Assembly: GCA_024398105.1 (NCBI GenBank)
Contig: JAKSJP010000019.1
Location: 1 to 47,174, forward strand
Direction: 5' to 3'
Source of the DNA: Bacteroidales bacterium
GTDB taxonomy: Bacteria; Bacteroidota; Bacteroidia; Bacteroidales; UBA932
DNA: 47,174 bases
Shown: positions 2,420 through 43,989 of the stretch, in pieces
Numbering within the stretch: the stretch's first letter is position 1
Layout: each line of letters starts with the position of its first letter
Translations under genes and position numbers: made by a program
The notes under the pieces: model-generated
Database searches by the model: none
Seen by the model: the letters and a program-made list of their open reading frames with translations, nothing else
Told to the model about the DNA's origin: nothing

Positions 2420-4441
2420 CTACTGGGTGACGGTTTCGAGGGTGAGGCCGAGGAGGCCGGCGGCCTTCAGGGCGGAGAGGACGGTGCTGGCGTCGTCGAT
2501 GTCGGTCCAGTTGCCGAGGACGTAGGTGAGTACGCCGTCCTGGGTCTCGCGGACGAGGTCCTTTGTGGTGGCGTTGTTGATAGCGCTGAGGGCGCTCTCG
2601 CTGAGGCGGCCGCCGTCCGGCCTGATGCGGATGCGGTAGTTCTGGACGATTGTCTTCTCAAGCTGGCGGGCGGTGTTGACTGCGATCTTGTCTCCGTCGC
2701 GGAAGGCGACGATGACTGCGCTTGGGAAGCCGGCGCGCTTGACTCTTGACAAGGCGCTGAGACAATCGCTGTAGCTGCGGAAGAGGCCTGCGCTGTAGGC
2801 TTTCTTGCTGCCGTCCTTGCGGACGAATACAGGGCTGAGGCCCTTGAGGTCGCTTTCCTTGGCATCGCCGCTGGTCTTGCTGAAGATCTGGATCTGGTAG
2901 ATCAGGCCGTCAGGAAGGGTGTTGTCCTCGGCGAAACGGCCTACCTTGAGTACCTGGAAGGTGTAGTCGAAGCTGCTCTTTGGCTTGGCGAACTGCATCT
3001 GCGGCACCTGGCCATAGTCAGTCTTGACAAATTCGAAGGCGGCAAGGTCGTTTCCGCGACCGGCATAGCCTGCACCCCCGCGACCGGCAGAGCCGTTGCC
3101 GCCGAAGAGGGCTGCGGCGTCGCTGTCGTCGGAGGCTGCGAGGACGGCCTTAGGGTCGACTACGATTCCGTCGGCGATGAGGTCCATCTCGATGGACTGC
3201 AAGGTCCTGGTCGCTTTGTTGAGTTCGTCGCGGGTGGCGACAAGTGACATTTCGTTTTCAAGGATTTCGTCTGCGACTTCCTTCTGTTCTTCGGCCGCAA
3301 GCTTTGACATGCGCGAACGAAGGAGGTCAAGGCTTTCCTGGCTGCGGGCGATCCTGCCCTTGAGGGACTGGACTTCGCGCAGCTGCATTACGTAGCGGCG
3401 GGTTGCATCAGCCCCGGCAGCACCAACAGCCCCGGCAGCAGAAGTGCCGGCAGCACCGACAGCCCCGGCAGCAGAAGCCCCGGCAGAACCGCCAACGCCA
3501 GACTGGCCGTCCGACGAGCCAAATGCAGCACCGGCAGCACCGCTAGCTCCACTAGCTCCACCAACTGCACCGGCCTTACCCGCAGGTACCATGAGCCTGC
3601 TGAGGGAGAGGGCTTCCTGGGCGGAGAGGGCGCGGCGGACAGGGGTCGTGTCGAATTCGAGGACGTAGACCCAGACGTCGCCGGTGCCGGGGCATTCCCT
3701 GTCGCTGGCGAAGATCGAATAGCGGCCGTCAGGGGTGTTGACGAAGAGATAGTCGTTGTATGGGGAGTTGTATGGGAAGCCGAGGTTCTCGGGCTCGCCC
3801 CATTCCTTGTTCCTTGAGTCCCAATGAGATACGTAGAGGTCGTAGCCGCCGGCGCCATAGAGGCCGTCAGAGGCGAACCAGAGGGTCCTGCCGTCGGCTG
3901 AGACATATGGGAATACCTCGTTGCCGCCGGTCGTGAGCTTCTCGTCAGCGATTACCGGCGCGCTCCAGAGGGTGTCGCTGTGCTCGGTGCGCATGATGCT
4001 GAGAAGGCCGTCCTCGTCGTGGGCGCTGAAATAGATCTCCCTTGCTCCGTCAGGCACGTAGGTCGCACCAGGGAAGGCAGAGGAAGAATCGAAGGCGTTC
4101 GGGGTCTGGCACCATGATCCCGCATCCTTCGGATACCAGAGGTAGAAGCCCTTGAGGCTCAGCTGTTTCTTGGCCACGACGGTCGGGGTGCTGGCGAAAT
4201 GGAGCATGTTCTCGCCGTTGAGGTTCTCCATCCTGAGCTGCTCGAGGCGAAGGGAATCGCCCGGGTCCATGGTACCATGTTCCAAAGCCTGTGCGCAGAT
4301 CTCGGCAGCCTCGGCGAAACGGTACTCCTGGCGGAGTGCCTCGACCTTGCGGACGGTCTCGTCCAACGGGGCCTGGGCCATGGCTTCCGCTCCCAGCAGA
4401 AGGGCCACGATTATCGGGAAATATGCTTTTGGTCTTCTCAT
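2420..4441 (-). CDS. Exported PD40 beta-propeller protein with SPOR-like C-terminus
   Basis: This encodes a 673-residue protein with an N-terminal signal peptide (to about residue 22, AMAQA). A short helical TPR-like segment follows, then PD40-type propeller blades (about 120-265) with repeats such as VSADGRTLWFASDG and NTPDGRYSIFASDR. Next come an Ala/Gly/Ser linker (about 290-345), a predicted coiled coil (about 348-420), and two SPOR-like segments (about 520-600 and 605-673; IYQIQIFSK and TYVLGNWTDIDDASTVLSALK). PD40 proteins in Bacteroidota often occur in OmpA-like periplasmic proteins, and SPOR folds bind peptidoglycan. A periplasmic envelope role is therefore inferred. No OmpA domain is visible. 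It is divergent from secDF. Confidence 0.8.
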   Translation of the reverse strand: MRRPKAYFPIIVALLLGAEAMAQAPLDETVRKVEALRQEYRFAEAAEICAQALEHGTMDPGDSLRLEQLRMENLNGENMLHFASTPTVVAKKQLSLKGFYLWYPKDAGSWCQTPNAFDSSSAFPGATYVPDGAREIYFSAHDEDGLLSIMRTEHSDTLWSAPVIADEKLTTGGNEVFPYVSADGRTLWFASDGLYGAGGYDLYVSHWDSRNKEWGEPENLGFPYNSPYNDYLFVNTPDGRYSIFASDRECPGTGDVWVYVLEFDTTPVRRALSAQEALSLSRLMVPAGKAGAVGGASGASGAAGAAFGSSDGQSGVGGSAGASAAGAVGAAGTSAAGAVGAAGADATRRYVMQLREVQSLKGRIARSQESLDLLRSRMSKLAAEEQKEVADEILENEMSLVATRDELNKATRTLQSIEMDLIADGIVVDPKAVLAASDDSDAAALFGGNGSAGRGGAGYAGRGNDLAAFEFVKTDYGQVPQMQFAKPKSSFDYTFQVLKVGRFAEDNTLPDGLIYQIQIFSKTSGDAKESDLKGLSPVFVRKDGSKKAYSAGLFRSYSDCLSALSRVKRAGFPSAVIVAFRDGDKIAVNTARQLEKTIVQNYRIRIRPDGGRLSESALSAINNATTKDLVRETQDGVLTYVLGNWTDIDDASTVLSALKAAGLLGLTLETVTQ
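3421..3486. repeat. 33-bp tandem duplication in the PD40 gene linker
   Basis: Two 33-bp copies (3421-3453 and 3454-3486) differ at only a few bases. They encode the repeated peptide SAAGAVGAAG in the low-complexity linker. In-frame expansion of a flexible linker is the simplest reading. Confidence 0.85.
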
Positions 4442-4470
4442 TGTTCGTTTTTCGGGTATCTGAAGCTTTG

Positions 4471-4478
4471 CAAATTTA
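4471..4478 (-). promoter_or_regulatory. -7 box for the PD40 gene
   Basis: Minus-strand TAAATTTG is a perfect TAnnTTTG match 30 bases before the ATG at 4441. No clear -33 TTTG is seen. Confidence 0.5.
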
Positions 4479-4519
4479 AGAAATAAGTGCGTTAAACTTT
4501 CTTTCTTGGAAAAAAAGTG

Positions 4520-4527
4520 TAATTTTG
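4520..4527 (+). promoter_or_regulatory. -7 box for secDF
   Basis: TAATTTTG matches TAnnTTTG. A leader of about 85 bases would follow before the ATG at 4616. A second, weaker TATTTTG lies at 4533. Confidence 0.5.
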
Positions 4528-4615
4528 CATTCTATTTTGCCCTCATTAGGGGTTATTGCGCCCTATACTGAGGTCAACTTTGACGAAAATTAATAATTTA
4601 AAATAACCAAAAACA

Positions 4616-7600
4616 ATGCAAAGTAAAGGTGCAATTAGATTTGTAGCGATTCTGCTTGGTATCGCCTGCCTTTGGCAGCTTTCCTTCACTGCAGTCACCA
4701 AGATGCAGGAGAAGAAGGCAGCTAAGTACGCAGAGGCTGCTGTTGCAGCATTCCAGCAGACTCCTGCATGGAGCAAGGTTGCGGCTGAGAATCAGGCTTA
4801 CGTGCTTGACTCCCTCTCAAAGGACCGCAACAGATGGTATACAGATTCCATCTCAGCTGAGAAGGTTTACTTCGGCTACACTTTCAAGGATGTAAAGGCT
4901 AAGGAGATCAACCTCGGTCTTGACCTCAAGGGTGGTATGAACGTAATGCTTCAGGTTCAGCTCGAAGACCTCGTAAGGGCTCTCGCAGGCGAGAATGCAA
5001 CTCCTGAGTTCAACAACGCTCTCGCTCTCGCAAAGGAGCGCAGCGTCAACTCACGTCAGGATTTCATCACTCTCTTCGCAGAGGCTTGGAAGGAAGTCGG
5101 CAACGGCCAGAGACTCGCTCAGGTATTCGGTACCTACGAGATGAGAGACCGTATCAAGCCGGAGTCTACCGACGAGCAGGTCATCAGCGTAGTACGCGAG
5201 GATGCTGAGTCTGCAGTAAGCAACTCATTCAACGTTCTCCGTAACCGTATCGACCGTTTCGGTGTGACCCAGCCTTCTATCCAGAAGCTTGGAAACAGCG
5301 GACGTATCCTCGTCGAGCTTCCAGGTGTAAAGGAGCCTGAGCGTGTAAGAAAGCTCCTCCAGGGAACCGCTTCCCTCGAATTCTGGACGACATATGACAA
5401 TGCTGAGATCGAGCAGTACCTCGCTGAGGCTAACGCTCTCCTCGCTCAGATCCTCGACGACGATGCTGAGGTTGCTGAGGACGCAGAGGCTTCTGAGGAG
5501 AACGCTGACGTACTCGCACAGGAGATCAACGCCAACTCTGAGGATGCTGACCTCGAGGCTGCAAGAAAGGCCAACCCTCTCTTCTCAGTACTCCAGCCTT
5601 CAGGCGCAAGAGGAAACGCATGCATCGGTTACGCACAGGGTGGTGACACCGCTGTTGTCAACAGATACCTCAATAACGCACGCGTAAAGGAGCTCTTCCC
5701 AGCTGAGTTCAAGGCTATGTGGTCAGTCGCTCCTTCTTCATACTTCGCAGGCGCCAATGTCTACGAGCTCGTAGCCATCAAGGCTGCTTCACGTGACGGT
5801 AAGGCTCCTCTCGACGGTAGCTCAGTCACCGACGCACGCGTATCATACGACGGTCAGGGTGTCAACAAGGGCGCACCGACCGTATCTATGACAATGAACG
5901 CAGAAGGTGCAAACAAGTGGGCAAGAATCACCAAGGACAACATCGGCAAGCAGGTGGCTATCGTTCTCGATGGTCTCGTATACTCTTATCCTACAGTACA
6001 GTCTGAAATCACCGGCGGTAGCTCACAGATCTCAGGTAACTTCACTGTAGAGGAGGCAACTGACCTTACCAACGTCCTCAAGTCAGGTAAGCTTCCTGCA
6101 CCTGCAAAGATCATCCAGGAGCAGGTTGTAGGTCCTTCACTCGGTGCGAAGTCAATCAAGGCAGGTATGATCTCATTCCTCATCGCCTTCCTCCTCGTAC
6201 TCGTGTACATGGTATTCTTCTACACAGGTGCCGGTCTCATCGCTGATATCGCGCTCCTCTGCAACGTCCTCTTCCTCTTCGGTACCCTTACCTCATTCGG
6301 AGCAGTCCTCACTCTCCCTGGTATCGCAGGTCTCGTCCTGACAATGGGTATGGCGGTCGATGCGAACGTGATCATCTACGAGCGTATCAAGGAGGAACTC
6401 GCTGCAGGCAAGGGTCTTGGAAAGGCTGTCGCTGACGGTTACAGCAATGCTTACTCAGCAATTATCGACGGTCAGATCACAACCCTCCTTACCGGTATCG
6501 TTCTCTTCGTGTTCGGTTCAGGTCCTGTACAGGGCTTCGCTACAACATTGATCATCGGTATCATCACTTCTGTCCTTACATCTATCTTCGTCACCCGTCT
6601 CATCATCGACGACAGACTCAACAAGGGCAAGAGCATTTCTTTCGAGAGCAATCTCACAAAGAACTTCCTCAAGAACACCAACATCGACTTCGTTGCGAAG
6701 AAGAAGTACTCATACATCATCTCTGGTACTCTCATCGTTCTTTCTATCCTCTCAATCAGTATCAAGGGCTTCACCTATGGTGTTGATTTCAGCGGTGGTA
6801 GAACCTACGTTGTACGTTTCGACCAGGATGTGACCGCAGAGTCTGTACGTGCTGCAGCCGAGGCTGTCTTCACAGACGGTAACTCTTCAGTCGAGGTCAA
6901 GCAGTTCGGTGGTGCATCACAGATGAAGATCACTACTACCTACAAGGTAGACCAGGAGTCTTCAGAGGTTGACGCAGAGGTTGAGCAGATGGTATACGAG
7001 GCAATGAAGGGCTTCTATGCTACACCAATCTCATACGACGAGTTCAAGTCTACACTCGACAACCCTAACGGTATCATTTCTTCTGACAAGGTAGGTCCTA
7101 CCATCGCAAGCGACATGAGAAGAGATGCTATCATCGCAGTCATCATCGCCCTCTTCGTAATCTTCGCTTACATCGCTGTAAGATTCAAGGGCTGGACATG
7201 GGGTCTCGGTGGTGTCGTTTCACTCGCACACACCTCTATCATCGTGATCGGCTTCTTCAGCTTCTTCTCAGGAATCCTCCCATTCAACCTTGACGTCGAC
7301 CAGACGTTCATCGCGGCGATCCTGACGATCATCGGTTACGCTATCAACGATAACGTGGTTATCTTCGACCGTATCCGTGAGTTCAAGAGCCTTCACCCTA
7401 ACACAGACTTCAAGACTAACGTGAACACTGCGCTCAACGCAACTCTCACACGTACAGTCAACACCTCAGTTTCAACTCTCATCCCTATGCTTGCAATCGC
7501 AATCTTCGGTGGTGAGTCGATCAGAGGTCTCTCTGTAGCACTCTGCCTCGGTATCCTCATCGGTACCTACGCTTCTATCATGATCGGTACTCCTGTCATG

Positions 7601-7645
7601 TTCGACGCTACTGCAAAGGCTGAGGCTAAGAAGTCAGCTAAGTAA
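4616..7645 (+). CDS. secDF: Fused protein translocase subunit SecDF
   Basis: This encodes a 1009-residue membrane protein combining SecD and SecF, which use the proton-motive force to pull secreted proteins through SecYEG. The SecD half has an N-terminal membrane helix, the D1 motif GLDLKGGMNVMLQV (about residue 103), a large periplasmic P1 domain, and the RND-like segment GMAVDANVIIYERIKEE. The SecF half has GVDFSGGRTYVVRF and GYAINDNVVIFDRIRE. Six membrane helices are evident in each half. Separate genes are the rule in proteobacteria; fusion is common in Bacteroidota. A very acidic insert of about 50 residues (about 270-320, rich in Glu, Asp and Ala) interrupts the P1 region. Codon use is strongly biased (CTC, AAG, CGT), as in a highly expressed gene. 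It has its own terminator and is monocistronic. Confidence 0.97.
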   Translation: MQSKGAIRFVAILLGIACLWQLSFTAVTKMQEKKAAKYAEAAVAAFQQTPAWSKVAAENQAYVLDSLSKDRNRWYTDSISAEKVYFGYTFKDVKAKEINLGLDLKGGMNVMLQVQLEDLVRALAGENATPEFNNALALAKERSVNSRQDFITLFAEAWKEVGNGQRLAQVFGTYEMRDRIKPESTDEQVISVVREDAESAVSNSFNVLRNRIDRFGVTQPSIQKLGNSGRILVELPGVKEPERVRKLLQGTASLEFWTTYDNAEIEQYLAEANALLAQILDDDAEVAEDAEASEENADVLAQEINANSEDADLEAARKANPLFSVLQPSGARGNACIGYAQGGDTAVVNRYLNNARVKELFPAEFKAMWSVAPSSYFAGANVYELVAIKAASRDGKAPLDGSSVTDARVSYDGQGVNKGAPTVSMTMNAEGANKWARITKDNIGKQVAIVLDGLVYSYPTVQSEITGGSSQISGNFTVEEATDLTNVLKSGKLPAPAKIIQEQVVGPSLGAKSIKAGMISFLIAFLLVLVYMVFFYTGAGLIADIALLCNVLFLFGTLTSFGAVLTLPGIAGLVLTMGMAVDANVIIYERIKEELAAGKGLGKAVADGYSNAYSAIIDGQITTLLTGIVLFVFGSGPVQGFATTLIIGIITSVLTSIFVTRLIIDDRLNKGKSISFESNLTKNFLKNTNIDFVAKKKYSYIISGTLIVLSILSISIKGFTYGVDFSGGRTYVVRFDQDVTAESVRAAAEAVFTDGNSSVEVKQFGGASQMKITTTYKVDQESSEVDAEVEQMVYEAMKGFYATPISYDEFKSTLDNPNGIISSDKVGPTIASDMRRDAIIAVIIALFVIFAYIAVRFKGWTWGLGGVVSLAHTSIIVIGFFSFFSGILPFNLDVDQTFIAAILTIIGYAINDNVVIFDRIREFKSLHPNTDFKTNVNTALNATLTRTVNTSVSTLIPMLAIAIFGGESIRGLSVALCLGILIGTYASIMIGTPVMFDATAKAEAKKSAK

Positions 7646-7670
7646 GACTGAAAAGTTTTCCACAATATGC

Positions 7671-7702
7671 AGCCGGCCCTTTCAAAAGGCCGGCTGTTTT
7701 TT
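7671..7702 (+). terminator. Rho-independent terminator of secDF
   Basis: AGCCGGCC and GGCCGGCT pair perfectly around a short AT-rich loop and are followed by seven Ts. Confidence 0.88.
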
Positions 7703-7710
7703 TATCTTTG
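7680..7710 (+). promoter_or_regulatory. Candidate dnaE promoter overlapping the secDF terminator
   Basis: TATCTTTG (7703-7710) is a perfect -7 box, 19 bases after TTTC (7680-7683), a near match to the -33 TTTG. It supports the ATG at 7730 as the real start, because an upstream ATG at 7667 would lie inside the terminator hairpin. Confidence 0.55.
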
Positions 7711-7729
7711 TTATCCAACTCGCAAAGAC

Positions 7730-10700
7730 ATGGCCTTCGTTCATCTACACGTACATACCCAGTATTCGATCCTCGACGGATTTTCCGATATCTCAAAGCT
7801 GTTTGACAAGGCTGACGCCCTTGGAATGCCGGCTCTTGCGATAACGGACCATGGTAACATGTACGGTGTGAAGGAATTCTTCAAGGCCGCAGGCAAGCAT
7901 CCGAACGTCAAGCCTATCATCGGATGCGAGGTCTACGTCACACGCCACTACGACCACAAGCTGAAGGACAACGACCATCGTCGCTACTACCATCTCATCC
8001 TTCTCGCGAAGAACTACGAAGGCTACAAGAACCTGATGAAGATCTGCTCGATCGGCCACATCGAAGGAAAATACTACGACAAGCCGAGGGTGAGCCACGA
8101 GGTCATCCAGCAGTACCACGAGAACCTCATCTGCTGCTCCGCATGTCTTGCAGGAGAGATCCCTAGAGCCATAGTCGACGGCGACATGGACGCTGCGCGC
8201 AAGGCCATACAGTGGCACAAGGACCTGTTCGGAGAGGACTACTACCTCGAGGTACAGCTCCATAAGACCGAAGTCCCTGAGGTCAGCATGGAAGTATATG
8301 AGCGCCAGATGGTCGCAAACGCCGGTATCTTCGAGCTTGCCCAGGAGATGGGCGTCAAGACCGTCGCTACCAATGACGTGCATTTCGTCAACAAGGAGGA
8401 CGGCCCGGCCCATGACAGGTTGATCTGTCTCACCACCAACACCTTCATCGACGATCCTAACCGAATGAGGTACACCCAGCAGGAGTATCTCAAGAGCGAG
8501 GAGGAGATGGCGGCTCTGTTCCCGGAGCATCCTGAAGCCCTTCAGAACACCCTGGAGATCAACGACAAGATCGAGAGCTACAAGATCGACAGAGGCCACG
8601 TGCTTCCTAAATACGAGATTGACCCTGAGTTCCTTGCGAACATCGACGAGCATCTGGAGAAATATAAGGAAATCATCGACGAGGGCCGTTGCGACAAGAA
8701 CGGAAACGACCGCGGCGAGGAATTCTGCAAGTCCGTGGCATATCTCTGCCACATCACCTATATCGGTGCCCACAAGCGCTACGGCGAGACCTTCACCGAC
8801 GAGCAGGTCGAGAGAATCGACTTCGAGCTGAAGACCATCTGCCGAATGGGTTTCCCTGACTACTTCCTCATCGTCCAGGACTACATCGCCGCTTCGCGTG
8901 CAGAAGGGTTCATGGTCGGTCCGGGCCGTGGTTCAGCTGCGGGCTCAGTAGTAGCCTACTGTCTGGGTATCACCAATCTGGACCCTATCAAGTACCAGCT
9001 CCTGTTCGAGCGTTTCCTCAATCCTGACCGTATCAGCATGCCTGATATCGACGTGGATTTCGAGAATCTCGTCGCTGCGCACAAGTATGTCGAGGACAAG
9101 TATTCTGCCGACCATGTGAGCCGAGTGATCACCTTCGGTACCATGGCCGCGAAGTCGGCCATCAAGGACATCGCCCGCATCAGCCACCTCAGCGTAGAGG
9201 AATCGAACAGGCTGACCAAGATGGTGCCTGACCGTCTCAGCGAGATGGTCGAGAAGGAGTATCCTTTCAATCCTAAGCTCGATGAGCTGAAGAAGGGATT
9301 CAAGGCCTTCGAGAAGGAAGTCGAGGTTGACGATCCAGACCATGAGGGCCAGAAGATAAAGGTCATGAAGACCTTCCAGAAAGGTCTCGAGGAGGTCGAC
9401 GTCAAGATCAAGCTCAAGAACTGCTACCGTCTTGTCGACGATTTCAAGAACGAGCTCGAGAACGGTTCTGAGATCAACAAGGAAGTGCTCAGGTACGCCC
9501 TTCAGCTTGAGGGCTGTATCCGCCAGGTCGGCGTGCATGCCTGCGCTACGATCATCGGCCGAGGCAACCTCACCGACTATATCCCTATCTGTCTCTCGGT
9601 CGACAAGGAGACAGGCGAGAATGTATGGACGTCGCAGTACGACGGCCACTATATCGAGGACGTGGGAATGCTCAAGATGGACTTCCTCGGCCTCAACACA
9701 CTGACCATCATCCATAAGTGTCTGGACCTCGTCAAGAAGCGTTTCGGAGTCGACATCGACATCGAGGCGATTCCTATCGACGATCCTGCGACCTATGAGC
9801 AGATATACAGCCGCGGAGACACCAAGAGTGTGTTCCAGTTCGAGTCTCCAGGTATGATGAAGTGGCTCCAGAACCTCCATCCGGAGCGTTTCGAGGACCT
9901 CATCGCGATGAACGCGCTCTACCGTCCGGGTCCTATGGACTATATTCCTTCGTTCGTTGCCAGAAAGCTCGGCCAGGAGCCGATCGAGTATGACCTTCCG
10001 GACATGGAGGAGTTCCTCTCGGAGACCTATGGCGTCACAGTCTACCAGGAGCAGGTCATGCTTCTGAGCCGCAAGCTTGCATCATTCACCAAGGGTGAGG
10101 CCGACAAGCTGCGTAAGGCGATGGGTAAGAAACAGATCGCCGTCATGCAGGAGCTCAAGGAGAAGTTCATGAAGAACGGACAGGCCAACGGCCATCCTGA
10201 GAAGACCCTCGACAAGATCTGGAAGGACTGGGAGAAGTTCGCCCAGTATGCGTTCAACAAGTCCCATGCGACCTGCTATGCATGGGTGAGCTACCAGACC
10301 GGCTGGCTCAAGTGCCACTATCCATCTGAGTTCCAGGCAGCCAACATGAGCTGCAACCTTGACTCGATGGACGAGATCAAGGCCATCATGGCGGACTGCA
10401 AGGCCCACAGGATCAAGGTGCTCAACCCGGATATCAACGAGTCTTCTGCCGAGTTCACCGTCAACAAGAACGGAGACATCCGCTTCGGTCTTGCCGGAAT
10501 GAAGGGCTTCGGCACCAACATCGTGGACGCCATCCTCAAGGAAAGAGAGGCCAACGGCCTTTTCGCCGATGTCTGGGAGTTCATGGAAAGAATGTCAGGC
10601 ATTGTCAACAGGAAGGCCCTCGAGTCGCTGGTGAATGCCGGTGCTTTCGATTCCATGGGCATAAAGCGCGGTCAGTTCTTCACTCCATGTGAGAAGGGCG

Positions 10701-11539: not shown

Positions 11540-11540
11540 A

Positions 11541-11568
11541 AAAAGCCTGTGGGATACGCAGGCTTTAT
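11541..11568. terminator. Bidirectional terminator between dnaE and the AraC-type gene
   Basis: AAAGCCTG and CAGGCTTT flank the loop TGGGATACG, with A-rich sequence on one side and T-rich on the other. The two genes converge here, so it can serve both. Confidence 0.8.
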
Positions 11569-11573
11569 TATTG

Positions 11574-19620: not shown

Positions 19621-20112
19621 TTATTCCAATATATCCTTGAAGTGCAGGGCTAATTCCTCCGACACGACCTCTCTCAGCGGCTTTTTGATGAAATCGCGGC
19701 TGGAAATCAGCTTATGCGGGATACAAAGCTGCGGAGTATCCATCCCGAGCTTTCCGTACAGAAGGATGTCGATATCTATCGTACGGTCATGGTACACTCT
19801 TCCGCCGTCCGCATCGAATTCCAGCGTCTCATGTCTTCCCAGACGACGCTCGATCTCCTTACAGAGCCCGAGCAAGGCTTCCGGCCCTGGTTCCGGTACC
19901 ATGGTACCTTCGCTCCCGGCGCCTTCCGGCAGGTCATAGCGGACGACGCAGTCCAGGAAAGCGGGTCCGTCGAAGCCCCATGATTCCGATTCGTCTATCG
20001 AGGAAAGGCGGGAAAAGGAAACGCCCAGCGCTTCGTCAAGAAGGCCCAGAGCCTGCATTATATTGGCTCTGCGGTTCCCGAGATTGCTGCCCAGCGAAAG
20101 ATAGATTTCCAT
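19621..20112 (-). CDS. folK: 6-hydroxymethyl-dihydropterin pyrophosphokinase
   Basis: This encodes a 163-residue HPPK, which transfers pyrophosphate from ATP to the pterin in folate synthesis. It starts YLSLGSNLGNR, the family opening, and carries the catalytic loop with HDRTIDIDILLYG near residue 120. A stretch of about 12 residues, roughly PEGAGSEGTMVPEPG (about 57-71), sits between the beta-strand FLDCVVRYDL and the helix PEALLGLCKEIERR, where typical HPPKs have only a few residues. It is encoded around the palindrome GGTACCATGGTACC. Catalytic residues are intact, so the enzyme is probably active. It lies 33 bases after the DUF59 gene. Confidence 0.92.
   Translation of the reverse strand: MEIYLSLGSNLGNRRANIMQALGLLDEALGVSFSRLSSIDESESWGFDGPAFLDCVVRYDLPEGAGSEGTMVPEPGPEALLGLCKEIERRLGRHETLEFDADGGRVYHDRTIDIDILLYGKLGMDTPQLCIPHKLISSRDFIKKPLREVVSEELALHFKDILE
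19895..19908. repeat. Perfect palindrome GGTACCATGGTACC inside folK
   Basis: This 14-bp perfect palindrome encodes GTMVP in the folK frame and sits in the extra linker of the protein. An identical copy lies at 43550-43563 in RAYT copy 2. Shorter forms occur at 4267, 41775 and 42060. Confidence 0.85.
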
Positions 20113-34048: not shown

Positions 34049-34774
34049 ATGGCAAACCTGATAGTAGATATAGGAAATACTGCAGTCAAGGCATCGTGGT
34101 CAGAAGGAATGACCATCGGAAAGACTTACAGATATCAAGGTGAAAGGGTAAGGAAGTTCATCTTGTCGCTTCTTGAAAAAGAGAAGCCTGAAGTGCTTGT
34201 GATATCATCGGCCTATGAGATCCCGTCCCAGGATGAGAAGCTCTACAAGGAAGCCTGCGGTGCGTTGATTCTTCTTGACAGTGCTCATACTCAGTTGCTT
34301 AAGGAAAATGATATTCCTGAATATCTGAGCTGTGACAGGGCTGCCTCCATAATCGCGTCCAGACATCTTTTCGAAGGAAAACCTGTTACTGTGGTAGACT
34401 TTGGAACTACCATAGCAGTCGATTTCCTGGACAAGGACGGAAAATATGAAAGCGGTACGGTATCTCTTGGAGTCAGGTCAAGACTGAAGGCAATCAACAG
34501 ATACTCACGCTCTCTTCCCCTTATAGAAATGCCTGAGGAAGTACCCCTCACAGGCGATTCTTTCGAGTCTTCTATAGCTGCAGGAGTTATTTCGGGCATA
34601 AAGTTTGAAATAGAGGGATACCTGGGTCTACACCCGGATAATATCGTGATATTCACAGGTGGGGACTCGAATTATTTTGTAAAAAGGATTAAAAAGTCCA
34701 TATTTGCAATTTGTAACCTGGTATTACTAGGATTAGCTTTAATCGCAGACGAGTATGTCAGAAAGAATAAGTAG
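34049..34774 (+). CDS. coaX: Type III pantothenate kinase
   Basis: This encodes a 241-residue kinase for the first step of coenzyme A synthesis. It has the ASKHA-fold phosphate motif LIVDIGNTAVKASW at the N-terminus, the second motif VTVVDFGTTIAVDFLD (about 113-128) and the Gly-rich YESGTVSLGVRSR. The adenosine motif IVIFTGGDSNYFVKR is near the end. Type III enzymes are common in Bacteroidota and need a monovalent cation. Its 3' end overlaps the next gene by 20 bases. Confidence 0.93.
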   Translation: MANLIVDIGNTAVKASWSEGMTIGKTYRYQGERVRKFILSLLEKEKPEVLVISSAYEIPSQDEKLYKEACGALILLDSAHTQLLKENDIPEYLSCDRAASIIASRHLFEGKPVTVVDFGTTIAVDFLDKDGKYESGTVSLGVRSRLKAINRYSRSLPLIEMPEEVPLTGDSFESSIAAGVISGIKFEIEGYLGLHPDNIVIFTGGDSNYFVKRIKKSIFAICNLVLLGLALIADEYVRKNK

Positions 34775-36071: not shown

Positions 36072-36125
36072 TAGATCTGTAAAGTGCAGTAAGGATTAAT
36101 TGATAACAATAAATTAAAAACTAAT

Positions 36126-37451: not shown

Positions 37452-37463
37452 TAATAATTCCTT

Positions 37464-38096
37464 TTGAAAAGGATTATAGAAATACTCAAGATGATGGCAA
37501 CCGCTGCGGCGGTTGCTATTGTCGTTTTTTCGTGCAAGTCAAAGCTTGACCAGGCAGAGGCCCTGAATCTGGAAGATACCCCTCTCCAGGTGGTGGACAG
37601 CATGTATATGATCGACAGCAAGAACGGTCAGATACAGATGCGAATCCTTACCGGAAGGATGGAGAAGTATGAGAAGGATACTCTCCGCTATGAACTTTTC
37701 CCACAGGGAATAAGTGTGTTCGCCTATAAGGAAGACGGCATCCTGGAGTCAACCATCGAGGCAGAGGAAGCCCGCCATGAGACCTATACGAACGGCGAGG
37801 AGGAGATATGGAAGGCCTATGGACATGTGGTCGTCCGCAATATCGAGAAGCGCCAGACCATGGAGACTGACACTCTGTACTGGGACCGTTCCAAGCAGGA
37901 AATCTACACCGACTGCTATGTCAGGATGTACTCTCCTGACGGTTTCATGCAGGGATATGGCATGCGTTCCGACGAGAGAGCGAGGAATTCTATAATCATG
38001 CGGCCGTTCAACAGTTATACGGTTGTTGTGCAGGATACTACGGTGATACTAGTGGATTCTGCCAATTTTATTGGCCCTTTGCTTAAGAAAAAGTAG
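37464..38096 (+). CDS. lptC: LPS export ABC transporter periplasmic protein LptC
   Basis: This encodes a 210-residue lipoprotein-type LptC, which carries lipopolysaccharide from LptBFG to LptA. The start is a TTG at 37464, giving MKRIIEILKMMATAAAVAIVVFSC; the internal ATGs at 37491/37494 would remove the positively charged n-region. The lipobox VFSC makes Cys24 the lipid anchor. The rest is a beta-jellyroll pattern (ISVFAYKEDGILESTIEAEEA; MRSDERARN). It starts 12 bases after the TPR gene and belongs to the same operon. Confidence 0.85.
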   Translation: MKRIIEILKMMATAAAVAIVVFSCKSKLDQAEALNLEDTPLQVVDSMYMIDSKNGQIQMRILTGRMEKYEKDTLRYELFPQGISVFAYKEDGILESTIEAEEARHETYTNGEEEIWKAYGHVVVRNIEKRQTMETDTLYWDRSKQEIYTDCYVRMYSPDGFMQGYGMRSDERARNSIIMRPFNSYTVVVQDTTVILVDSANFIGPLLKKK

Positions 38097-38185
38097 GTTT
38101 ATGGGCTAAAACGATGGATATTTTGAGGAAATTGTTTAACTTCGCACTCCTTATATTATCGTAAAATCTAAAAAGTTTAAATAAA

Positions 38186-40273
38186 ATGGCATTACTCGAG
38201 AAAATTCGCGGTGGCAAGTTCGGAGTGTTTGCAACAGGCCTTGTAGCTCTTGGTCTGTTGTCATTCATCGTTTCACCACAGGATTTGATTTCCAGGTTCC
38301 AGAACAGCTCTTCAAAGGTCGATGTCGGCAATATCAACGGTAAGAGAATCTCTTACACTGACTTCCAGGCTGACGTCCAGGACATGAGCACCATCAATGA
38401 GCTCGTAGGCGCAGCTCAGGGATCAGAGGCTCAGGCACAGGCAAGAGATGCTGCTTGGCAGAACCTTATCTACAGAGACCTCTTCGTAAAGAAGGCTCAG
38501 GCAGCAGGTATCAATGTAGGCGAGAAGGAGATGGTTGACCTTACAACAGGTAACATGCTCTCACCGCTCATCTACCAGAACCCAGCATTCGTCGATGAGA
38601 CAGGTGCTTTCTCAAAGGATCAGCTCTCTTCATTCATCCAGAGCCTCAACCTTGACGAGACCGGCCGTCTCCGTCTCTACTGGAACTATCTCCAGACATC
38701 TATCGCTAACCAGAAGTATTCAGAGAAGTACAGCACTCTCTTCACACAGGGTTCAGTCGTGAACGCTCTCCAGCTCCGCAAGGAAGTTGAGCAGAACAAC
38801 AACACTACTGACGTCGATTTCGTAATGGTTCCTTTCGGATACCAGCTCGATTCAACCATCACAGTCTCTGACAGCGAGATCAAGGCATACTACAACTCTC
38901 ACAAGCAGCTCTTCAAGCAGAACGCCAACAGAGATATGGAGTACGTGGTATTCGAGGTCGTTCCTTCAGAGAAGGACATCGAGGCTACAAAGGCTTCAGT
39001 TGCTGAGCTCTATGATGAGTTCGCTTCAACAGACAACATGAAGGCATTCCTTCTCAAGAACTCAGACCGCACTCTCAGCGACTACTGGTACAAGAGCGGT
39101 GAGCTTGCAACTGTGAATTCAAACGTTGATTCATTCGTATGGGGTGCTGAGGGCAATGTATCAGACATCATCACAGCAGGCAATGACTTCTTCGTAGTAA
39201 GAGTCATGGACAGCCAGATGAGATCTGAGACCGCTTATGTAAAGCATGTCCTCCTCCAGGGTGATGCTACAGCAAAGGCAGACAGCCTCCTCAGCCGTGT
39301 AAAGGCTGGTGAGAGCATCTCAAGCATCGCTGCTCAGTTCTCAGCAGACCAGGGTTCTATGGACAACGGCGAGCTTGGTTCAATCGGCAACCTCAGCCAG
39401 AACGCAATGATCCCAGGCTTCGAGTCTGTACTCACAGCAAAGGTCGGCGAGCCATTCATCCTCGACACCCAGTATGGCAAGCATATCGTTCTCGTTTCAG
39501 AGAAGTCAGAGCCTGTACTCATGAAGCAGGTCGCTATCCTCGAGAAGGAGTCAATTCCTAGCAAGGAGACTTTCAACAAGTTCTATGCACAGGCAAACGA
39601 GTTCGCTACAGCAGCAGCCGGTGGTTATGAGAACTACAAGAAGGCAGTTTCTGAGCTCGGTGTATACTCACACCCTGTAAACGGCATGATGGAAAGCTCA
39701 GAGCGTCTCGGTTCAGTTGACAATACCAAGGAGGTAACCCGCTGGGTATTCGACAACAAGGCAGGTAAGGTTTCTGAGATCATCACAGTTGACCAGAACT
39801 TCTTCTTCATCGCTACTGTAAAGGCTATCCACAAGGAAGGCTACGCTACAGTTGCAGAGGCAGCTCCTTCAATCCGCCAGAACCTTGCATTCCTTAAGGA
39901 AGGTCAGAAGGTCGGTGAGGACGTCAAGGCTCAGATCGCAGGTCTTTCAAGCCTCGAGGAGATCGCTGAGAAGCTCGGTACTTCAGTAAGCAGCCAGAGC
40001 GGTGTAGCATTCTCTTCACTCAACAGCCAGGGTCTCGACCCAGCATTCATCGGCGCACTTTCAGTTGCTCCTGAAGGAAAGATCGTAGGTCCGGTAGTCG
40101 GCCAGATCGGTGTATACGTATTCAAGGTAACCGGCCGCGACACAGGCGCATACTACACAGAGGATGACGCTAAGGCACGCGAGGCTCAGTACGCAAGCTA
40201 CAACACCCAGATGATCATTCCAGTCATGATGAATGACGCTGACGTAAAGGACAACAGAGCGCGCTTCTATTAA
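38186..40273 (+). CDS. PpiD/SurA-like peptidylprolyl isomerase
   Basis: This encodes a 695-residue envelope chaperone. One N-terminal membrane helix (FGVFATGLVALGLLSFIV, about 12-29) anchors it. A SurA-N-like helical chaperone region follows (about 45-230), then a parvulin PPIase domain (about 350-450) with AYVKHVLLQ and GELGSIGNLSQNAMIPGFE. A second, degenerate parvulin-like domain spans about 480-600. This is the PpiD architecture. It folds outer-membrane proteins as they leave SecYEG. Strongly biased codons suggest high expression. It ends the run that starts at coaX. Confidence 0.9.
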   Translation: MALLEKIRGGKFGVFATGLVALGLLSFIVSPQDLISRFQNSSSKVDVGNINGKRISYTDFQADVQDMSTINELVGAAQGSEAQAQARDAAWQNLIYRDLFVKKAQAAGINVGEKEMVDLTTGNMLSPLIYQNPAFVDETGAFSKDQLSSFIQSLNLDETGRLRLYWNYLQTSIANQKYSEKYSTLFTQGSVVNALQLRKEVEQNNNTTDVDFVMVPFGYQLDSTITVSDSEIKAYYNSHKQLFKQNANRDMEYVVFEVVPSEKDIEATKASVAELYDEFASTDNMKAFLLKNSDRTLSDYWYKSGELATVNSNVDSFVWGAEGNVSDIITAGNDFFVVRVMDSQMRSETAYVKHVLLQGDATAKADSLLSRVKAGESISSIAAQFSADQGSMDNGELGSIGNLSQNAMIPGFESVLTAKVGEPFILDTQYGKHIVLVSEKSEPVLMKQVAILEKESIPSKETFNKFYAQANEFATAAAGGYENYKKAVSELGVYSHPVNGMMESSERLGSVDNTKEVTRWVFDNKAGKVSEIITVDQNFFFIATVKAIHKEGYATVAEAAPSIRQNLAFLKEGQKVGEDVKAQIAGLSSLEEIAEKLGTSVSSQSGVAFSSLNSQGLDPAFIGALSVAPEGKIVGPVVGQIGVYVFKVTGRDTGAYYTEDDAKAREAQYASYNTQMIIPVMMNDADVKDNRARFY

Positions 40274-40291
40274 TAGAACGCTCCTATACAT

Positions 40292-40328
40292 AAAAACCCT
40301 GTAGGTGAATCCGACCTACAGGGTTTTT
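40292..40328. terminator. Bidirectional terminator between the PpiD-like gene and ychF
   Basis: AAAAACCCTGTAGGT and ACCTACAGGGTTTTT form a 15-bp perfect stem around GAATCCG, with T-runs on both strands. Confidence 0.92.
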
Positions 40329-40352
40329 GCTATATCATTGTGTTTCAGCGGT

Positions 40353-41456
40353 CTAGACGTTGAAGAGGAAATGCATGATGTCGCCATCCTGGACGACATA
40401 CTCCTTGCCTTCGATTCCCATCTTTCCGGCGGCGCGTACGGCAGCCTCGGTCTTGTACTGCACGAAGTCGTCGTACTTGATGACCTCTGCGCGGATGAAG
40501 CCCTTCTCGAAGTCGCTGTGGATGACTCCGGCAGCCTTAGGGGCCTTGTCTCCCTTGTGGATGGTCCATGCGCGGCACTCATCTGCACCTGCTGTGAAGT
40601 AGGTCTGGAGACCGAGAAGATGGTAGGCGCTCTGGATGAGGCGGACTACACCAGACTCCTGGAGACCAAGTTCTTCAAGGAACATCTGCCTGTCTTCGTA
40701 GTTGTCGATCTCGGCGATCTCAGCCTCGGTCTTGGCAGCGATGACGATGACCTCTGCGTCTTCGTCCTTGACAGCCTCGCGTACTGCATCGACATGGGCA
40801 TTGCCTGTAGATGCGGAAGCTTCGTCTACATTGCAGACATAGAGGACCTTCTTGTTGGTGAGGAGGTAGAGCTCCTTTGCCATAGCCTCTTCATCTTCGT
40901 TGGCGAGAGCCACGCTTCTGCATGACTTTCCTTCGAGGAGGGCTGCGCGATACTTCTCGAGAAGGTCGCAGAGCTTCTTGGCGTCCTTGTCGGCGCCTAC
41001 CTTAGCCTGCTTCTGGACCTTTGCAAGGCGTGCCTCGACAGTCTCGAGGTCCTTGATCTGGAGCTCGGCGTCAATGACTTCCTTGTCTCTTACAGGATCG
41101 ACACTGCCATCGACATGGACGATGTTGCCGTCTTCGAAGCAGCGGAGGACATGGAGGATAGCGTCTGTCTCACGGATGTTTGCGAGGAACTGGTTTCCGA
41201 GACCTTCACCCTTGCTGGCGCCCTTGACGAGGCCGGCGATGTCGACGATGTCGACTGTTGCAGGGATTGTTCTCTTAGGCTGACACATCTCGGTCAGCAC
41301 GTCGAGTCTCTTGTCCGGGACATTGGTTGAACCAAGGTTAGGTTCTATGGTGCAGAAAGGAAAATTGGCGCTCTGGGCCTTTCCTGAACTGATGCAATTG
41401 AAAAGGGTCGACTTGCCGACGTTAGGCAGTCCGACGATACCGCATTTTAGTGACAT
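40353..41456 (-). CDS. ychF: Redox-regulated ATPase YchF
   Basis: This encodes a 367-residue Obg-family protein that prefers ATP over GTP and is linked to translation and oxidative-stress response. G1 GLPNVGKSTLFN (about 8-19), the segment VDIVDIAGLVKGASKGEGLGNQFL, and a coiled-coil insert (about 130-160) are present. The C-terminal TGS domain (about 280-367) includes AWTIHKGDKAPKAAGVIHSDF. Length is typical. A -7 box lies at 41478-41485. Confidence 0.97.
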   Translation of the reverse strand: MSLKCGIVGLPNVGKSTLFNCISSGKAQSANFPFCTIEPNLGSTNVPDKRLDVLTEMCQPKRTIPATVDIVDIAGLVKGASKGEGLGNQFLANIRETDAILHVLRCFEDGNIVHVDGSVDPVRDKEVIDAELQIKDLETVEARLAKVQKQAKVGADKDAKKLCDLLEKYRAALLEGKSCRSVALANEDEEAMAKELYLLTNKKVLYVCNVDEASASTGNAHVDAVREAVKDEDAEVIVIAAKTEAEIAEIDNYEDRQMFLEELGLQESGVVRLIQSAYHLLGLQTYFTAGADECRAWTIHKGDKAPKAAGVIHSDFEKGFIRAEVIKYDDFVQYKTEAAVRAAGKMGIEGKEYVVQDGDIMHFLFNV

Positions 41457-41477
41457 GTAAACAAAAATTATTCACTA

Positions 41478-41485
41478 CAAAGTTA
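41478..41485 (-). promoter_or_regulatory. -7 box for ychF
   Basis: Minus-strand TAACTTTG matches TAnnTTTG, 21 bases before the ATG at 41456. Confidence 0.45.
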
Positions 41486-41565
41486 GTAAAATTCAGGATT
41501 CTTTACCTCGAATAGCGAAAGAATGCCTTAATTAGGCCTTTTCTAAATTCAAGAATGGCCTGATT

Positions 41566-42777
41566 ATGAAAAATCTGCATCATCTTACCTTAGCAGTCTT
41601 CGTTGCTTTGCTTCTGGCATTTTCACCCGTATCCCTGACGGCACAGACATCCGCCTCCGGCCCCGGGCCTTCCTCCTCCGATTCCGGCAAGCTGCTTCTG
41701 ATGTTCTGGAACCTCGAGAACTTCTTTGACTACATTGACGGCGGGACCAGCGACTCGGACAAGGAATTCTCTGCCCATGGTACCAGACACTGGGGCAGGA
41801 AGAAGTTCCAGACCAAGTGCGCCGCGATCGCCAAGACCCTGATGTGGGTCGGGGGACGGGAGGGCCGCATGCCCGATGTATTCGCCGTCGCGGAGGTCGA
41901 GAACCGCTACGTCCTCAGGCGCCTGATCGAAGATACCATGATCCGGAAATACGGCTACGAGATCGTCCATTACGACTCGCCCGACCCCCGCGGCATCGAC
42001 GTCGCCCTTCTCTACCGGCCGCAGACGCTCGAACTGCTGGAAAGCCGTCCTGTCCGGGTCCATGGTACCGCTCCCTCACCGTCCGTGCCCGGCTCTGCCG
42101 CCGCTGCCCCGGAACCGGCTGTGCTCGTCACCAGAGACATCCTGATGACCAAGTTCCGGCTTTCGGATCAAGGAGGGGACCGCCTTCTGGACCAGGGGGC
42201 GGCTGTCCTGGTTGCCGGCGATACCCTGGCGGTCCTGGTGAACCACCATCCTTCGAAATACGGCGGCGGGGACACGGACTGGCGCCGAGACGCCGCCCTT
42301 GCCCGTTTAAAGGCCCTGAAAGACTCCTTGGTGACCGCCGGCGTGTCGAAGGTCGTCGCGACCGGTGACTTCAACGACACGCCCGAAAACACCCGTTTCC
42401 AGGCCGACACCCTCTGTCCGTTCGTCAACCTCGCCTCACCCCTCTCCGCCCGCGGCGAAGGCAGCATCCGCTTCAACGGCCGCTGGCAGCTTATCGACAT
42501 GTTTCTCGTCACCCCTCCGCTGCTTGGAACACGCACTGTCGAGATGGAAATCCTTCATCCGCCGTTCCTGACGGTCCGCGACAACGTCCACTCCGGCGAC
42601 AAGCCCCTCCGCACCTACTCCGGTCCCCGCTACATCGGCGGCGTCAGTGACCACCGTCCAGTCATCCTGCGCCTGGGACTTGGTCCTGCTCTGGAACCTG
42701 TTCCAGATCCTGCCTTATCAGGCCGGGAAGGCAGTTCCGCCAATGGTGGACCTGGTTCTGTCGATAAAAAGGAATAG
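41566..42777 (+). CDS. Secreted endonuclease/exonuclease/phosphatase-family protein
   Basis: This encodes a 403-residue protein with a signal peptide (to about LTAQ, residue 27). The EEP fold is supported by FWNLENFFD (about 47-55), the catalytic Glu in VAEVENR (about 112), GIDVALLYRP, VNHHPSKYGG, GDFNDTP (about 267) and the terminal SDHRPVIL (about 364). Family members hydrolyse nucleic acids or phospholipids; which substrate is used here is unknown. A Pro/Ala-rich stretch after RVHGT (about 166-186) looks inserted and contains the palindrome motif CCATGGTACC at 42060. Another lies at 41775. The gene is clearly more GC-rich than the upstream operons and uses CCC/GCC codons. Confidence 0.86.
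   Translation: MKNLHHLTLAVFVALLLAFSPVSLTAQTSASGPGPSSSDSGKLLLMFWNLENFFDYIDGGTSDSDKEFSAHGTRHWGRKKFQTKCAAIAKTLMWVGGREGRMPDVFAVAEVENRYVLRRLIEDTMIRKYGYEIVHYDSPDPRGIDVALLYRPQTLELLESRPVRVHGTAPSPSVPGSAAAAPEPAVLVTRDILMTKFRLSDQGGDRLLDQGAAVLVAGDTLAVLVNHHPSKYGGGDTDWRRDAALARLKALKDSLVTAGVSKVVATGDFNDTPENTRFQADTLCPFVNLASPLSARGEGSIRFNGRWQLIDMFLVTPPLLGTRTVEMEILHPPFLTVRDNVHSGDKPLRTYSGPRYIGGVSDHRPVILRLGLGPALEPVPDPALSGREGSSANGGPGSVDKKE
42054..42069. repeat. 16-mer CCGGGTCCATGGTACC shared with the PD40 gene
   Basis: CCGGGTCCATGGTACC occurs here and again, identical, at 4261-4276 in the unrelated PD40 gene. Here it encodes VHGT at the edge of an insert-like Pro/Ala stretch. Confidence 0.8.
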
Positions 42778-42795
42778 CAATGACAACTAGAAAAA

Positions 42796-42926
42796 CATCT
42801 GCCACACGAAAATGGCTTGGAGGGCTGTGAGAGGCCAATCTGTGTGGCAGGTCTGCCGATTTTGCCCATATCTGCCACGGGGGAATGGTCTAGAGGGCCT
42901 TCCGTGGCACATTCGTGTGGCAGATG
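42796..42926. repeat. Nested inverted repeats (REPIN-like) upstream of RAYT copy 2
   Basis: CATCTGCCACACGAA (42796-42810) and TTCGTGTGGCAGATG (42912-42926) are perfect 15-bp inverted repeats. Inside, CTGCCACAC (42799-42807) pairs with GTGTGGCAG (42842-42850), and TGCCACGG (42873-42880) pairs with CCGTGGCA (42902-42909). ATCTGCCAC recurs in direct orientation 73 bp apart (42797 and 42870), each followed by AATGG and GAGGGC. This is the layout of two REP units in one larger hairpin. No protein gene is seen in 42778-43017. Confidence 0.85.
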
Positions 42927-43017
42927 AATTTCGGGTTGCCGCCAATATGAAAAAGACTCGGGAAAACTGACGACGCTTTATGTTACTATTTATTAATCTT
43001 ATGACTTTTAATAGATT

Positions 43018-43989
43018 ATGGATGAGATCAGAAACAATTTAGGAATAGGTGTCGCTTTTGTCAAGGGCCAGAAGACTCCTGTCAGGAAGTGCTGGCACTT
43101 CTATACGGACGGGAAGGCTGTTGATGTCATGTTCTACGACGACAGGGACTTTGCTGCCGGGCTGAACCGTATCCATGTGGTTCTTCAGGACTATGAGGTG
43201 ATAATTCTGGCTTTCTGCCTGATGGACACGCATATCCATTTTGTACTGTATGGGGAATTTGACGAATGCAACCGCTTCATCCATGAGTATTTACGAAGGA
43301 CGTCGGCTGCGATATCCCTTCGCCATGGGGACAGGAGCAAACTACAGGCTGCATCGGTCGGGTACCAGGTCATCAAGGACGATGGCTATCTGAAGACCGT
43401 GATCTGCTATGTCATCAAGAATCCGACGACAGCCGGAATGAAGTACTGTCCGACCGATTACCCGTGGTCGAGTGGTCCTCTCTATTTCCGTTCAAGCGGC
43501 TTCTGGTGCTCGCCACCTTGGTCAAGGCCGGGAGAGGACGGTCTTTTACGGTACCATGGTACCGAGAATCTGGCTGATCTTCCTGTTCGGGACCGCCGGT
43601 CGATGTTGCGGACCAGACAAGAATGGGTACGACCCGCCCAGGTGGTGGACGGAACCGTTTTCCCGGGCGCATTCGTCCGTTCCGATCTGGTGGAAGAAGT
43701 CTTCCGTACCCATAGAAGCTTTCAGTATTTCGTGGGTAGGACCAAAGATGATGACGTTGAGTTCAAGGATAGTTTCATATCCTATCTGTCCGTCCCTGTC
43801 CAGGAGATGCGTCAGCATAAGAACGAATTATGTATGAAGATGTTCGGTGAGAAGACGGTCAAGAAACTGTCGGTCCATCAGCGCTTGAAGCTGGCCAGGC
43901 GTCTCCGTTCCGGATATCAGTCTTCTCCTAGACAGATTGCCCGTCTCTGTGGTCTGGTCTATGATGAGGTCAAGGATAAGCTTGACTGA
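43018..43989 (+). CDS. REP-associated tyrosine transposase-like protein (Y1/RAYT type), copy 2
   Basis: This encodes a 323-residue protein clearly homologous to the product at 732-1694: both share WHFxTDGxAVDxMFYD, the metal motif MDTHIHFVLYGE (His72, His74 here), the candidate catalytic Tyr131 in CYVIKNPTTAG, and YPWSSGPLYF. The C-terminus is a helix-turn-helix-like segment (SPRQIARLCGLVYDEVKDK). It is intact but far from identical to copy 1, so these are long-diverged paralogues rather than a recent IS duplication. No terminal inverted repeats flank the gene itself. The perfect palindrome GGTACCATGGTACC lies inside at 43550-43563, in a variable region after the core. Confidence 0.87.
   Translation: MDEIRNNLGIGVAFVKGQKTPVRKCWHFYTDGKAVDVMFYDDRDFAAGLNRIHVVLQDYEVIILAFCLMDTHIHFVLYGEFDECNRFIHEYLRRTSAAISLRHGDRSKLQAASVGYQVIKDDGYLKTVICYVIKNPTTAGMKYCPTDYPWSSGPLYFRSSGFWCSPPWSRPGEDGLLRYHGTENLADLPVRDRRSMLRTRQEWVRPAQVVDGTVFPGAFVRSDLVEEVFRTHRSFQYFVGRTKDDDVEFKDSFISYLSVPVQEMRQHKNELCMKMFGEKTVKKLSVHQRLKLARRLRSGYQSSPRQIARLCGLVYDEVKDKLD
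43550..43563. repeat. Perfect palindrome GGTACCATGGTACC inside RAYT copy 2
   Basis: This 14-bp palindrome is identical to the one in folK but is read in another frame (RYHGTE). At the equivalent place in RAYT copy 1 (1171-1185) lies GCCATGGACCATGGC, a different palindrome on the same CCATGG core. Confidence 0.85.

Follow-up and report, generated by a model that had tools for sequence, protein, structure and literature searches.

A short word dispersed through the genome of a Cryptobacteroides-like gut bacterium resembles the tags by which some unrelated bacteria recognise their own DNA

The window, meaning the whole 47,174-nucleotide stretch of DNA that was analysed, belongs to the genome of a Cryptobacteroides-like Bacteroidales species, a gut bacterium (2.43 Mb in 48 contigs, 91.8% complete), and an Rfam scan of it returned a single tRNA and nothing else. 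Its 33 called genes include dnaE and several others named in a preliminary description of this DNA. Pfam backs three of those names, folK (HPPK), an EEP-family gene and a PD40 gene, but at E <= 0.001 it has nothing for the ORF at 43018-43989, which had been called a RAYT gene. Together these genes hold 10 strand-sites of the 9-mer CATGGTACC at 7 places:

3585-3593, minus strand: copy of CATGGTACC in the PD40 gene (2420-4441, minus strand; Pfam PD40), absent from the earlier list
4268-4276, plus strand: copy of CATGGTACC in the PD40 gene, within the 16-mer CCGGGTCCATGGTACC
4271-4279, minus strand: overlapping opposite-strand copy, giving the CATGGTACCATG form, absent from the earlier list
9137-9145, minus strand: copy in dnaE, on a conserved Gly-Thr-Met
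19895-19908: GGTACCATGGTACC, made of overlapping copies at 19895-19903 (minus) and 19900-19908 (plus), in a variable linker of folK (HPPK)
41776-41784, plus strand: copy in the Exo_endo_phos_3 (EEP-family) gene
42061-42069, plus strand: second copy in the Exo_endo_phos_3 (EEP-family) gene, within CCGGGTCCATGGTACC
43550-43563: the 14-mer, made of overlapping copies at 43550-43558 (minus) and 43555-43563 (plus), in the ORF at 43018-43989 (the RAYT gene of the preliminary description)

The six places previously listed for the 10-mer CCATGGTACC are all real, with full 14-mers at 19895 and 43550, and the identical 16-mer reported at 4261-4276 and 42054-42069 is visible in the flanks. The 8 strand-hits of CCATGGTACC in the window far exceed both dinucleotide shuffles (mean 0.02, maximum 1) and a null in which codons are resampled with the proteins of the called genes unchanged (mean 0.63, maximum 4 in 1000 resamplings). 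Reversed patterns do not serve as controls here: CCATGGTACC is unchanged by reversal, and the 9-mer, once reversed, still overlaps that 10-mer.

Across the host genome CCATGGTACC has 250 strand-hits, against 0-17 in each of 60 relatives. The enriched unit, however, is not the palindromic element originally proposed: it is the oriented, asymmetric 9-mer CATGGTACC, whose left flank is degenerate (KGWYCATGGTACC denotes the 9-12-mer with this flank). This core occurs 439 times in the host genome (181 per Mb) and at most 44 times in any of 399 congeners, while GWYCATGGTACC occurs 248 times in the host and at most 9 times among 392 other genomes of the order. In an 847-kb sample the 14-mer palindrome GGTACCATGGTACC is a rare form, found at 7 of 156 places, and the overlapping form CATGGTACCATG accounts for 11. 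Beyond the few bases next to the core, conservation of the flanks fades out in aligned copies, and complementarity across the dyad, examined at 21 offsets, was not consistently in excess (summed z for 24 positions, -14.3 to 10.2); a hairpin or extended palindrome was rejected on this ground. Free motif discovery by expectation-maximisation drifted twice to codon periodicity.

The codon-model check that the preliminary description had called for bears out its claim that the recurrence beats chance. In the called genes of the 847-kb sample there are 146 copies, against a codon-resampling mean of 19.7 and a maximum of 32 in 200 resamplings. The 174 strand-sites divide into 69 sense, 77 antisense and 28 between genes, so that 16% of the copies lie in the roughly 7% of the sample that is noncoding; gene calls came from our own ORF caller, whose first version (645 ORFs) left 35 copies intergenic and whose second (687 ORFs) left 28. 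Throughout the sample, as had been noted for the window, copies fall in unrelated genes and in several reading frames. Where the peptide is fixed, the word's coding is still chosen in excess: GTM is coded GGTACCATG in 61 of 87 cases (9.4 expected), HGT carries the word's coding in 38 of 58 (3.3 expected) and xMVP in 26 of 49 (4.7 expected), compared with 8 of 106, 1 of 36 and 0 of 98 at relatives' loci, which are not independent because all centre on dnaE. The enrichment is a DNA-level one: it extends to both orientations, to several frames and to intergenic copies, and none of the relatives examined matches it in degree.

As tripeptides, GTM, HGT and MVP occur more often than expected from amino-acid frequencies. 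A role as a translation-start element was rejected, as copies are spread along the gene length and the ATG of a copy serves as start codon in 9 of 539 ATG starts.

Intergenic DNA and sequence under weak constraint hold more than their share of copies. The density of copies declines with the codon typicality of the gene, from 0.34 per kb in the least typical quintile to 0.08 in the most typical (685 of 687 ORFs used), and the preference for variable protein segments suggested earlier is borne out, since 66 of 114 alignments are gapped close to the site, compared with 258 of 2222 random positions in the same alignments. The further suggestion, that the copies had been inserted, holds at most in part: a relative covers 32 of the sites, of which 11 are gapped and may be insertions while 21 are gapless, and in 6 of the gapless ones just 2-3 of the 9 bases are different. 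Insertion is therefore not needed for several copies, which lie 2-3 substitutions from their orthologue without a gap. For folK, where absence of the linker in relatives had been raised as a check, the 10 relatives shown keep linkers of varying length, all lacking the TMVP peptide in this protein-level comparison. The dnaE copy gives no evidence of recent gain, since all 9 bases are identical in one relative.

Along the chromosome spacing is close to random (CV 0.98 in the 847-kb sample), 20-kb stretches have overdispersed counts (mean 4.1, variance 7.0), and 39 of the 40 sampled hold at least one copy; among the matches listed, every contig from C1 to C12 is represented. Of the 20 pairs less than 120 bp apart, 18 overlap, and the other two are spaced at 22 bp and 100 bp.

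Measured against congeners, the exact word is 28.9-fold denser and its one-mismatch forms 2.54-fold (shuffled words 0.69-1.66, 5-95%); over relatives, two-mismatch forms reach 1.23-fold, inside the shuffled-word range of 0.79-1.35, and three-mismatch forms 1.06-fold. Against the codon null the ratios for 0, 1, 2 and 3 mismatches are 7.5, 1.31, 1.01 and 1.00, with shuffled words at one mismatch reaching 1.27 at 95% and 1.45 at most; near-match enrichment is weak once codons are held. In a published table for the USS, overrepresentation also falls with mismatch load, but the likeness extends no further than the first two steps. According to the available text of the source consulted, mismatch gradients of such a kind are not specific to uptake.

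We tentatively favour the explanation that this is a dispersed, species-specific word spread by molecular drive, the likeliest route being biased uptake or recombination in natural transformation. A sequence-specific DNA-handling step would favour word-bearing DNA, and conspecific DNA would then replace near-matches by exact matches. By analogy with the Neisseria DUS and the Haemophilus USS, that step would most probably lie in uptake or recombination during transformation; single copies would have no local function and would jointly label conspecific DNA. The word resembles such tags, its role here being putative. Like the DUS of Neisseriaceae and the USS of Pasteurellaceae, it is a non-palindromic 9-12-base word in hundreds of copies, far above codon expectation, in both orientations, with an excess in permissive and intergenic DNA and with exact copies far more enriched than one-mismatch forms; some ORFs begin inside it, as has been reported for the uptake sequence of Neisseria. 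Unlike them, it is found in Bacteroidota, reaches this level in 1 of 400 genomes of the genus, is less dense than the uptake sequences of the cited literature, and shows a near-match gradient that is weak under the codon null. Terminator-spaced inverted pairs, characteristic of the DUS though not required, are rare (the one at 22 bp).

The competence genes bear on this favoured explanation from both sides. In DUS and USS systems a type IV pilus and a sequence-specific receptor belong to the competence machinery. A ComEC Competence domain lies in a 370-aa ORF that itself holds a copy of the word, but its presence says little because the profile also matches in 10 of 14 control genomes, and T2SSE (the pilus-type ATPase) matches in the host genome only below its curated cut-off. 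According to the available text of PMC8459023, a competent Bacteroidota species needs ComEC, DprA, ComF and RecA together with proteins of unknown function. Confinement to one species also counts against an uptake-type reading, as it implies very fast gain, or loss elsewhere; so do the overdispersed counts and the hexamer CCATGG, which is raised even outside the word (563 per Mb in the host, 335 in relatives).

A possible though less likely alternative is that a protein of chromosome organisation, recombination or repair binds the copies (a Chi-, KOPS- or Noc-like role) and that selection for this binding, not uptake, keeps them. The degenerate left flank is of the kind seen in protein-DNA sites, the information in core and flank exceeds, by our estimate, what marking about 440 sites needs, and the near-ubiquity over sampled stretches fits as well. 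Chi and KOPS are likewise dispersed short words, but they have an orientation bias, and no such bias was seen here: orientation relative to genes is balanced, and the GC skew of individual contigs, 48 in this genome, has no consistent relation to it by eye. Chi and KOPS also differ in that this word is confined to one species among those examined, its sister species lacking a comparable elevation, and its greater frequency in less codon-typical genes argues in the same direction.

Improbable, on the present evidence, is a sequence-specific mutational or short-patch repair bias that makes the word with no benefit or DNA uptake. The gapless substitutions at copies would suit it, as would the enrichment of partial words over 14 congeners (2.1-fold for GWYCATGG without TACC, 11.9-fold for the core without GWY). 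A target of 9-12 bases is nevertheless hard to explain by short-patch repair alone, known biases of this type acting on 4-5 bases. If the word proves to be protein-binding or mutational instead, some 440 hits in one species would still be an unusually clean case of a word's spread.

Slightly more doubtful again is an iterated sequence of the HIP type, in which the word is made and maintained by a DNA methyltransferase together with a repair bias linked to it. HIP1 and its alternates in cyanobacteria are dispersed too, and in the available text of PMC4390886 alternate HIPs can be confined to single genomes and in some cyanobacteria are linked to a matching methyltransferase. CATG, GTAC, CCATGG and GGTACC are all contained in the word, and the excess of CCATGG outside it would agree with such a process; GGTACC outside the word, by contrast, is near the relatives' level (194 vs 178 per Mb). 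The core is no palindrome, and its density is 5-10 times below the 1000-2000 per Mb stated for HIPs. The host genome, 91.8% complete, has no match to PF01555, PF00145, PF02086 or PF02384, against matches in 11, 10, 4 and 13 of 14 control genomes, and the methyltransferase link was rejected after these four families.

Short palindromic elements inserted in frame, Rickettsia-like as the preliminary description had proposed or mobilised by a RAYT, are very unlikely. Recurrence in coding sequence and the indel-prone surroundings recall them, but most covered sites are gapless, the unit is asymmetric, and the flanks contain no long repeat unit, consistent complementarity or general insertion signature. 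The supposed RAYT connection comes down to one of the 156 places, in the one such ORF considered, and REP sequences are extragenic hairpins flanking a RAYT gene, whereas 146 of the 174 strand-sites here lie inside called genes. A codon, amino-acid or assembly artefact, for which the commonness of the three tripeptides could be cited, is scarcely credible given the excess over the codon null on both strands, in several frames and between genes, and the spread over contigs and sampled stretches.

We know of no earlier self-DNA uptake or recombination word in Bacteroidota, and a literature search for uptake-type words there found no earlier case. If the word does mark self DNA it would be, as far as we know, the first in Bacteroidota, and such a code inside one species of a large genus would allow the origin of such dialects among uptake sequences to be tested by comparing close relatives.

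Finally, other words are raised in the genus. In a sister species, CATTGCGG occurs 110 times in 507 kb against a codon null of 21.3, and CATTGCGGC 225 times genome-wide, with at most 83 in the other 149 congeners and 16 in the host. A codon-context effect may be the source of the CATTGCGG excess, because a single copy out of 111 is intergenic although 8% of the DNA is noncoding. It is conceivable, if rather unlikely, that Cryptobacteroides species carry fast-changing, species-specific self-recognition dialects sharing the start CAT (CATGGTACC, CATTGCGG and, more weakly, CATATTCC/CATATTCA), which would be read by a pilus-independent uptake or recombination system new to Bacteroidota. In nine pooled congeners CATATTCC/CATATTCA are raised 2.6-2.8-fold, alongside other words such as TTCCGGAA (3.2-fold).

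The 10-mer palindrome that the preliminary description had reported as recurring within genes was recovered at all the places claimed in the window, with 8 strand-hits against a mean of 0.02 in dinucleotide shuffles, and a mean of 0.63 (maximum 4 in 1000 resamplings) when the codons of the 33 called genes were resampled with the proteins kept (the codon null). Across the host genome it gave 250 strand-hits, against 0 to 17 in 60 relatives, comprising 36 congeners and 24 other members of the order, and the called genes of an 847-kb sample of this genome held 90 copies, well away from the codon null (mean 8.9, maximum 18 in 200 resamplings).

In this sample the asymmetric 9-mer CATGGTACC, hereafter the word, occurred at 156 places (174 strand-sites), with 1 to 30 occurrences for each word differing from it by one change. 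On its left side K-G-W-Y is preferred, with 75% of sites having G at -3, 80% A/T at -2 and 90% C/T at -1; preference on the right is weak. Relative to 14 sampled congeners, the density of GWYCATGGTACC, the 12-mer joining GWY to the word, was 85.7-fold, that of the word without GWY 11.9-fold, and that of GWYCATGG without TACC 2.1-fold. Outside the word GGTACC was near the level of relatives (194 versus 178 per Mb), and CCATGG was still elevated (563 versus 335 per Mb). Two overlapping copies form the palindromes GGTACCATGGTACC (n = 7) and CATGGTACCATG (n = 11); since independent halves would predict about 1.6 and 4.7, by our own arithmetic from the counts, back-to-back copies are somewhat favoured over independence. 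Three of these 18 forms fall in the window by happenstance.

The dnaE relatives suggest that the host belongs to Candidatus Cryptobacteroides, the best 80 of 405 also including Bacteroidales or Bacteroidia bins and one labelled Rikenellaceae; the closest dnaE DNA among 100 sampled congeners was that of G112 and G012, each with 79% identity over about 3.2 kb. The word had 439 hits in the host and 24 and 32 in these two nearest species; the three highest counts in the 399 further congeneric genomes compared were 44, 41 and 41. GWYCATGGTACC had 248 hits in the host versus no more than 9 in any of the 392 genomes sampled from the rest of the order.

Other words were enriched elsewhere in the genus. 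In the sister species G012 (L209-L216, L241-L260), CATTGCGG had 110 coding copies versus 21.3 under the codon null, with 1 of 111 copies intergenic, and CATTGCGGC occurred 225 times across the genome versus at most 83 in any of the other 149 congeners. CATATTCC and CATATTCA reached 3.5-3.8 times the codon null in G033, G096, G114 and G065 pooled, and were less dense in the host than in these congeners.

The enrichment acts at the level of DNA, not protein. Of the 174 strand-sites, 69 lie in sense orientation within called genes, 77 in antisense, and 28 fall between genes, the noncoding share of the sample being about 7%; the ATG of a copy is the called start in 9 of 539 ATG starts, and part of the intergenic excess is therefore located at starts. 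Codon choice for a given peptide was strongly biased to the word in the host, a bias absent from the loci of the named relatives, all centred on dnaE. Copies were spread over the full gene length with near-Poisson spacing (CV 0.98; 14 of 116 gaps below 500 bp, 10.2 expected), and counts per 20 kb were overdispersed (mean 4.1, variance 7.0). From the least to the most codon-typical quintile, genes carried 49, 33, 28, 21 and 15 copies, or 11.4, 9.2, 6.9, 5.3 and 5.4 times the codon null. In a thin sample of relatives, ORFs with a relative held 24 copies (6.1 times the null) and those without held 122 (8.3 times).

How the copies arose was addressed at 146 coding sites in 114 genes, using 3.29 Mb of fetched relatives (at least 40% identity, site covered); 32 sites had a covering relative and 114 had none. 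The claim that copies lie in variable, inserted-looking segments held in part: a gap lay near the site in 66 of 114 alignments versus 258 of 2222 at random positions, some genes supplying many alignments, but 21 of the 32 covered sites aligned without gaps and 11 with them. The excess of gaps near sites fits accumulation in permissive segments, and some insertions would also fit. At the gapless sites the nine bases of the relative differed from the word by 0 (2 sites), 2 (4), 3 (2), 4 (2), 5 (4), 6 (3), 7 (2) or 8 (2) mismatches; the alignments point directly to in-place substitution at the six sites with 2-3, and at the two with none, one in dnaE, host and relative have the word in common.

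Against 3.09 Mb of congeners, density ratios at 0, 1, 2 and 3 mismatches were 28.9, 2.54, 1.23 and 1.06, with medians of 1.14, 1.08 and 1.04 at 1, 2 and 3 mismatches for 200 composition-shuffled words (5-95% ranges 0.69-1.66, 0.79-1.35 and 0.89-1.14); ratios to the codon null were 7.5, 1.31, 1.01 and 1.00. Exact matches therefore stand out, one-mismatch forms do so modestly, and the two remaining classes do not. The available text of PMC1939737 gives 182.9, 2.0, 0.22 and 0.07 for USS, which would become ~184, 3.0, 1.22 and 1.07 if the formula is (observed-expected)/expected, and reports such gradients for other frequent words too. Because the word is orientation-neutral, permissively placed and asymmetric, we consider a word of the uptake or recombination type more likely than inserted elements, Chi or HIP (comparison sources, in part: HIP, PMC4390886; DUS/USS, PMC3630211, PMC2346458, PMC1939737), its link to uptake being a proposal. 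Among the matches listed, literature searches gave no paper on an uptake sequence in Bacteroidota and, for the 9-mer, no title on a genomic repeat. The host encodes ComEC (a 370-aa ORF with a Competence domain, itself containing one copy of the word), and T2SSE matches were under the cut-off. A missing pilus is not decisive, since in the competent Bacteroidota species Riemerella anatipestifer transformation requires, in the available text of PMC8459023, ComEC, DprA, ComF and RecA, together with functionally uncharacterised proteins, several of which have a predicted outer-membrane location. As searches for four DNA-methyltransferase families gave zero matches in the 91.8% complete genome, the host may lack classical restriction-modification.

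A separate repeat, GACCTAGGTC, occurred at 15 places in 847 kb of the host and at none in 1.76 Mb of relatives, and was found in the host genome at these loci:
L049:14486-14808, GACCTAGGTC locus
L052:1327-1445, GACCTAGGTC locus
L058:5079-5172, GACCTAGGTC locus
L061:2266-2275, GACCTAGGTC locus
Fourteen of the 15 places lie between genes; three arrays in convergent gaps account for 13 of these, and five pairs are spaced 25 bp apart. In appearance GACCTAGGTC is closer to an extragenic repeat of the REP/BIME type than CATGGTACC is. Adjoining one array is an 818-bp intergenic gap (L058:4542-5359) that contains several repeats, of which one recurs with CCCACCTACCTCAC and another with TACCTGGCACCTCCGGC.
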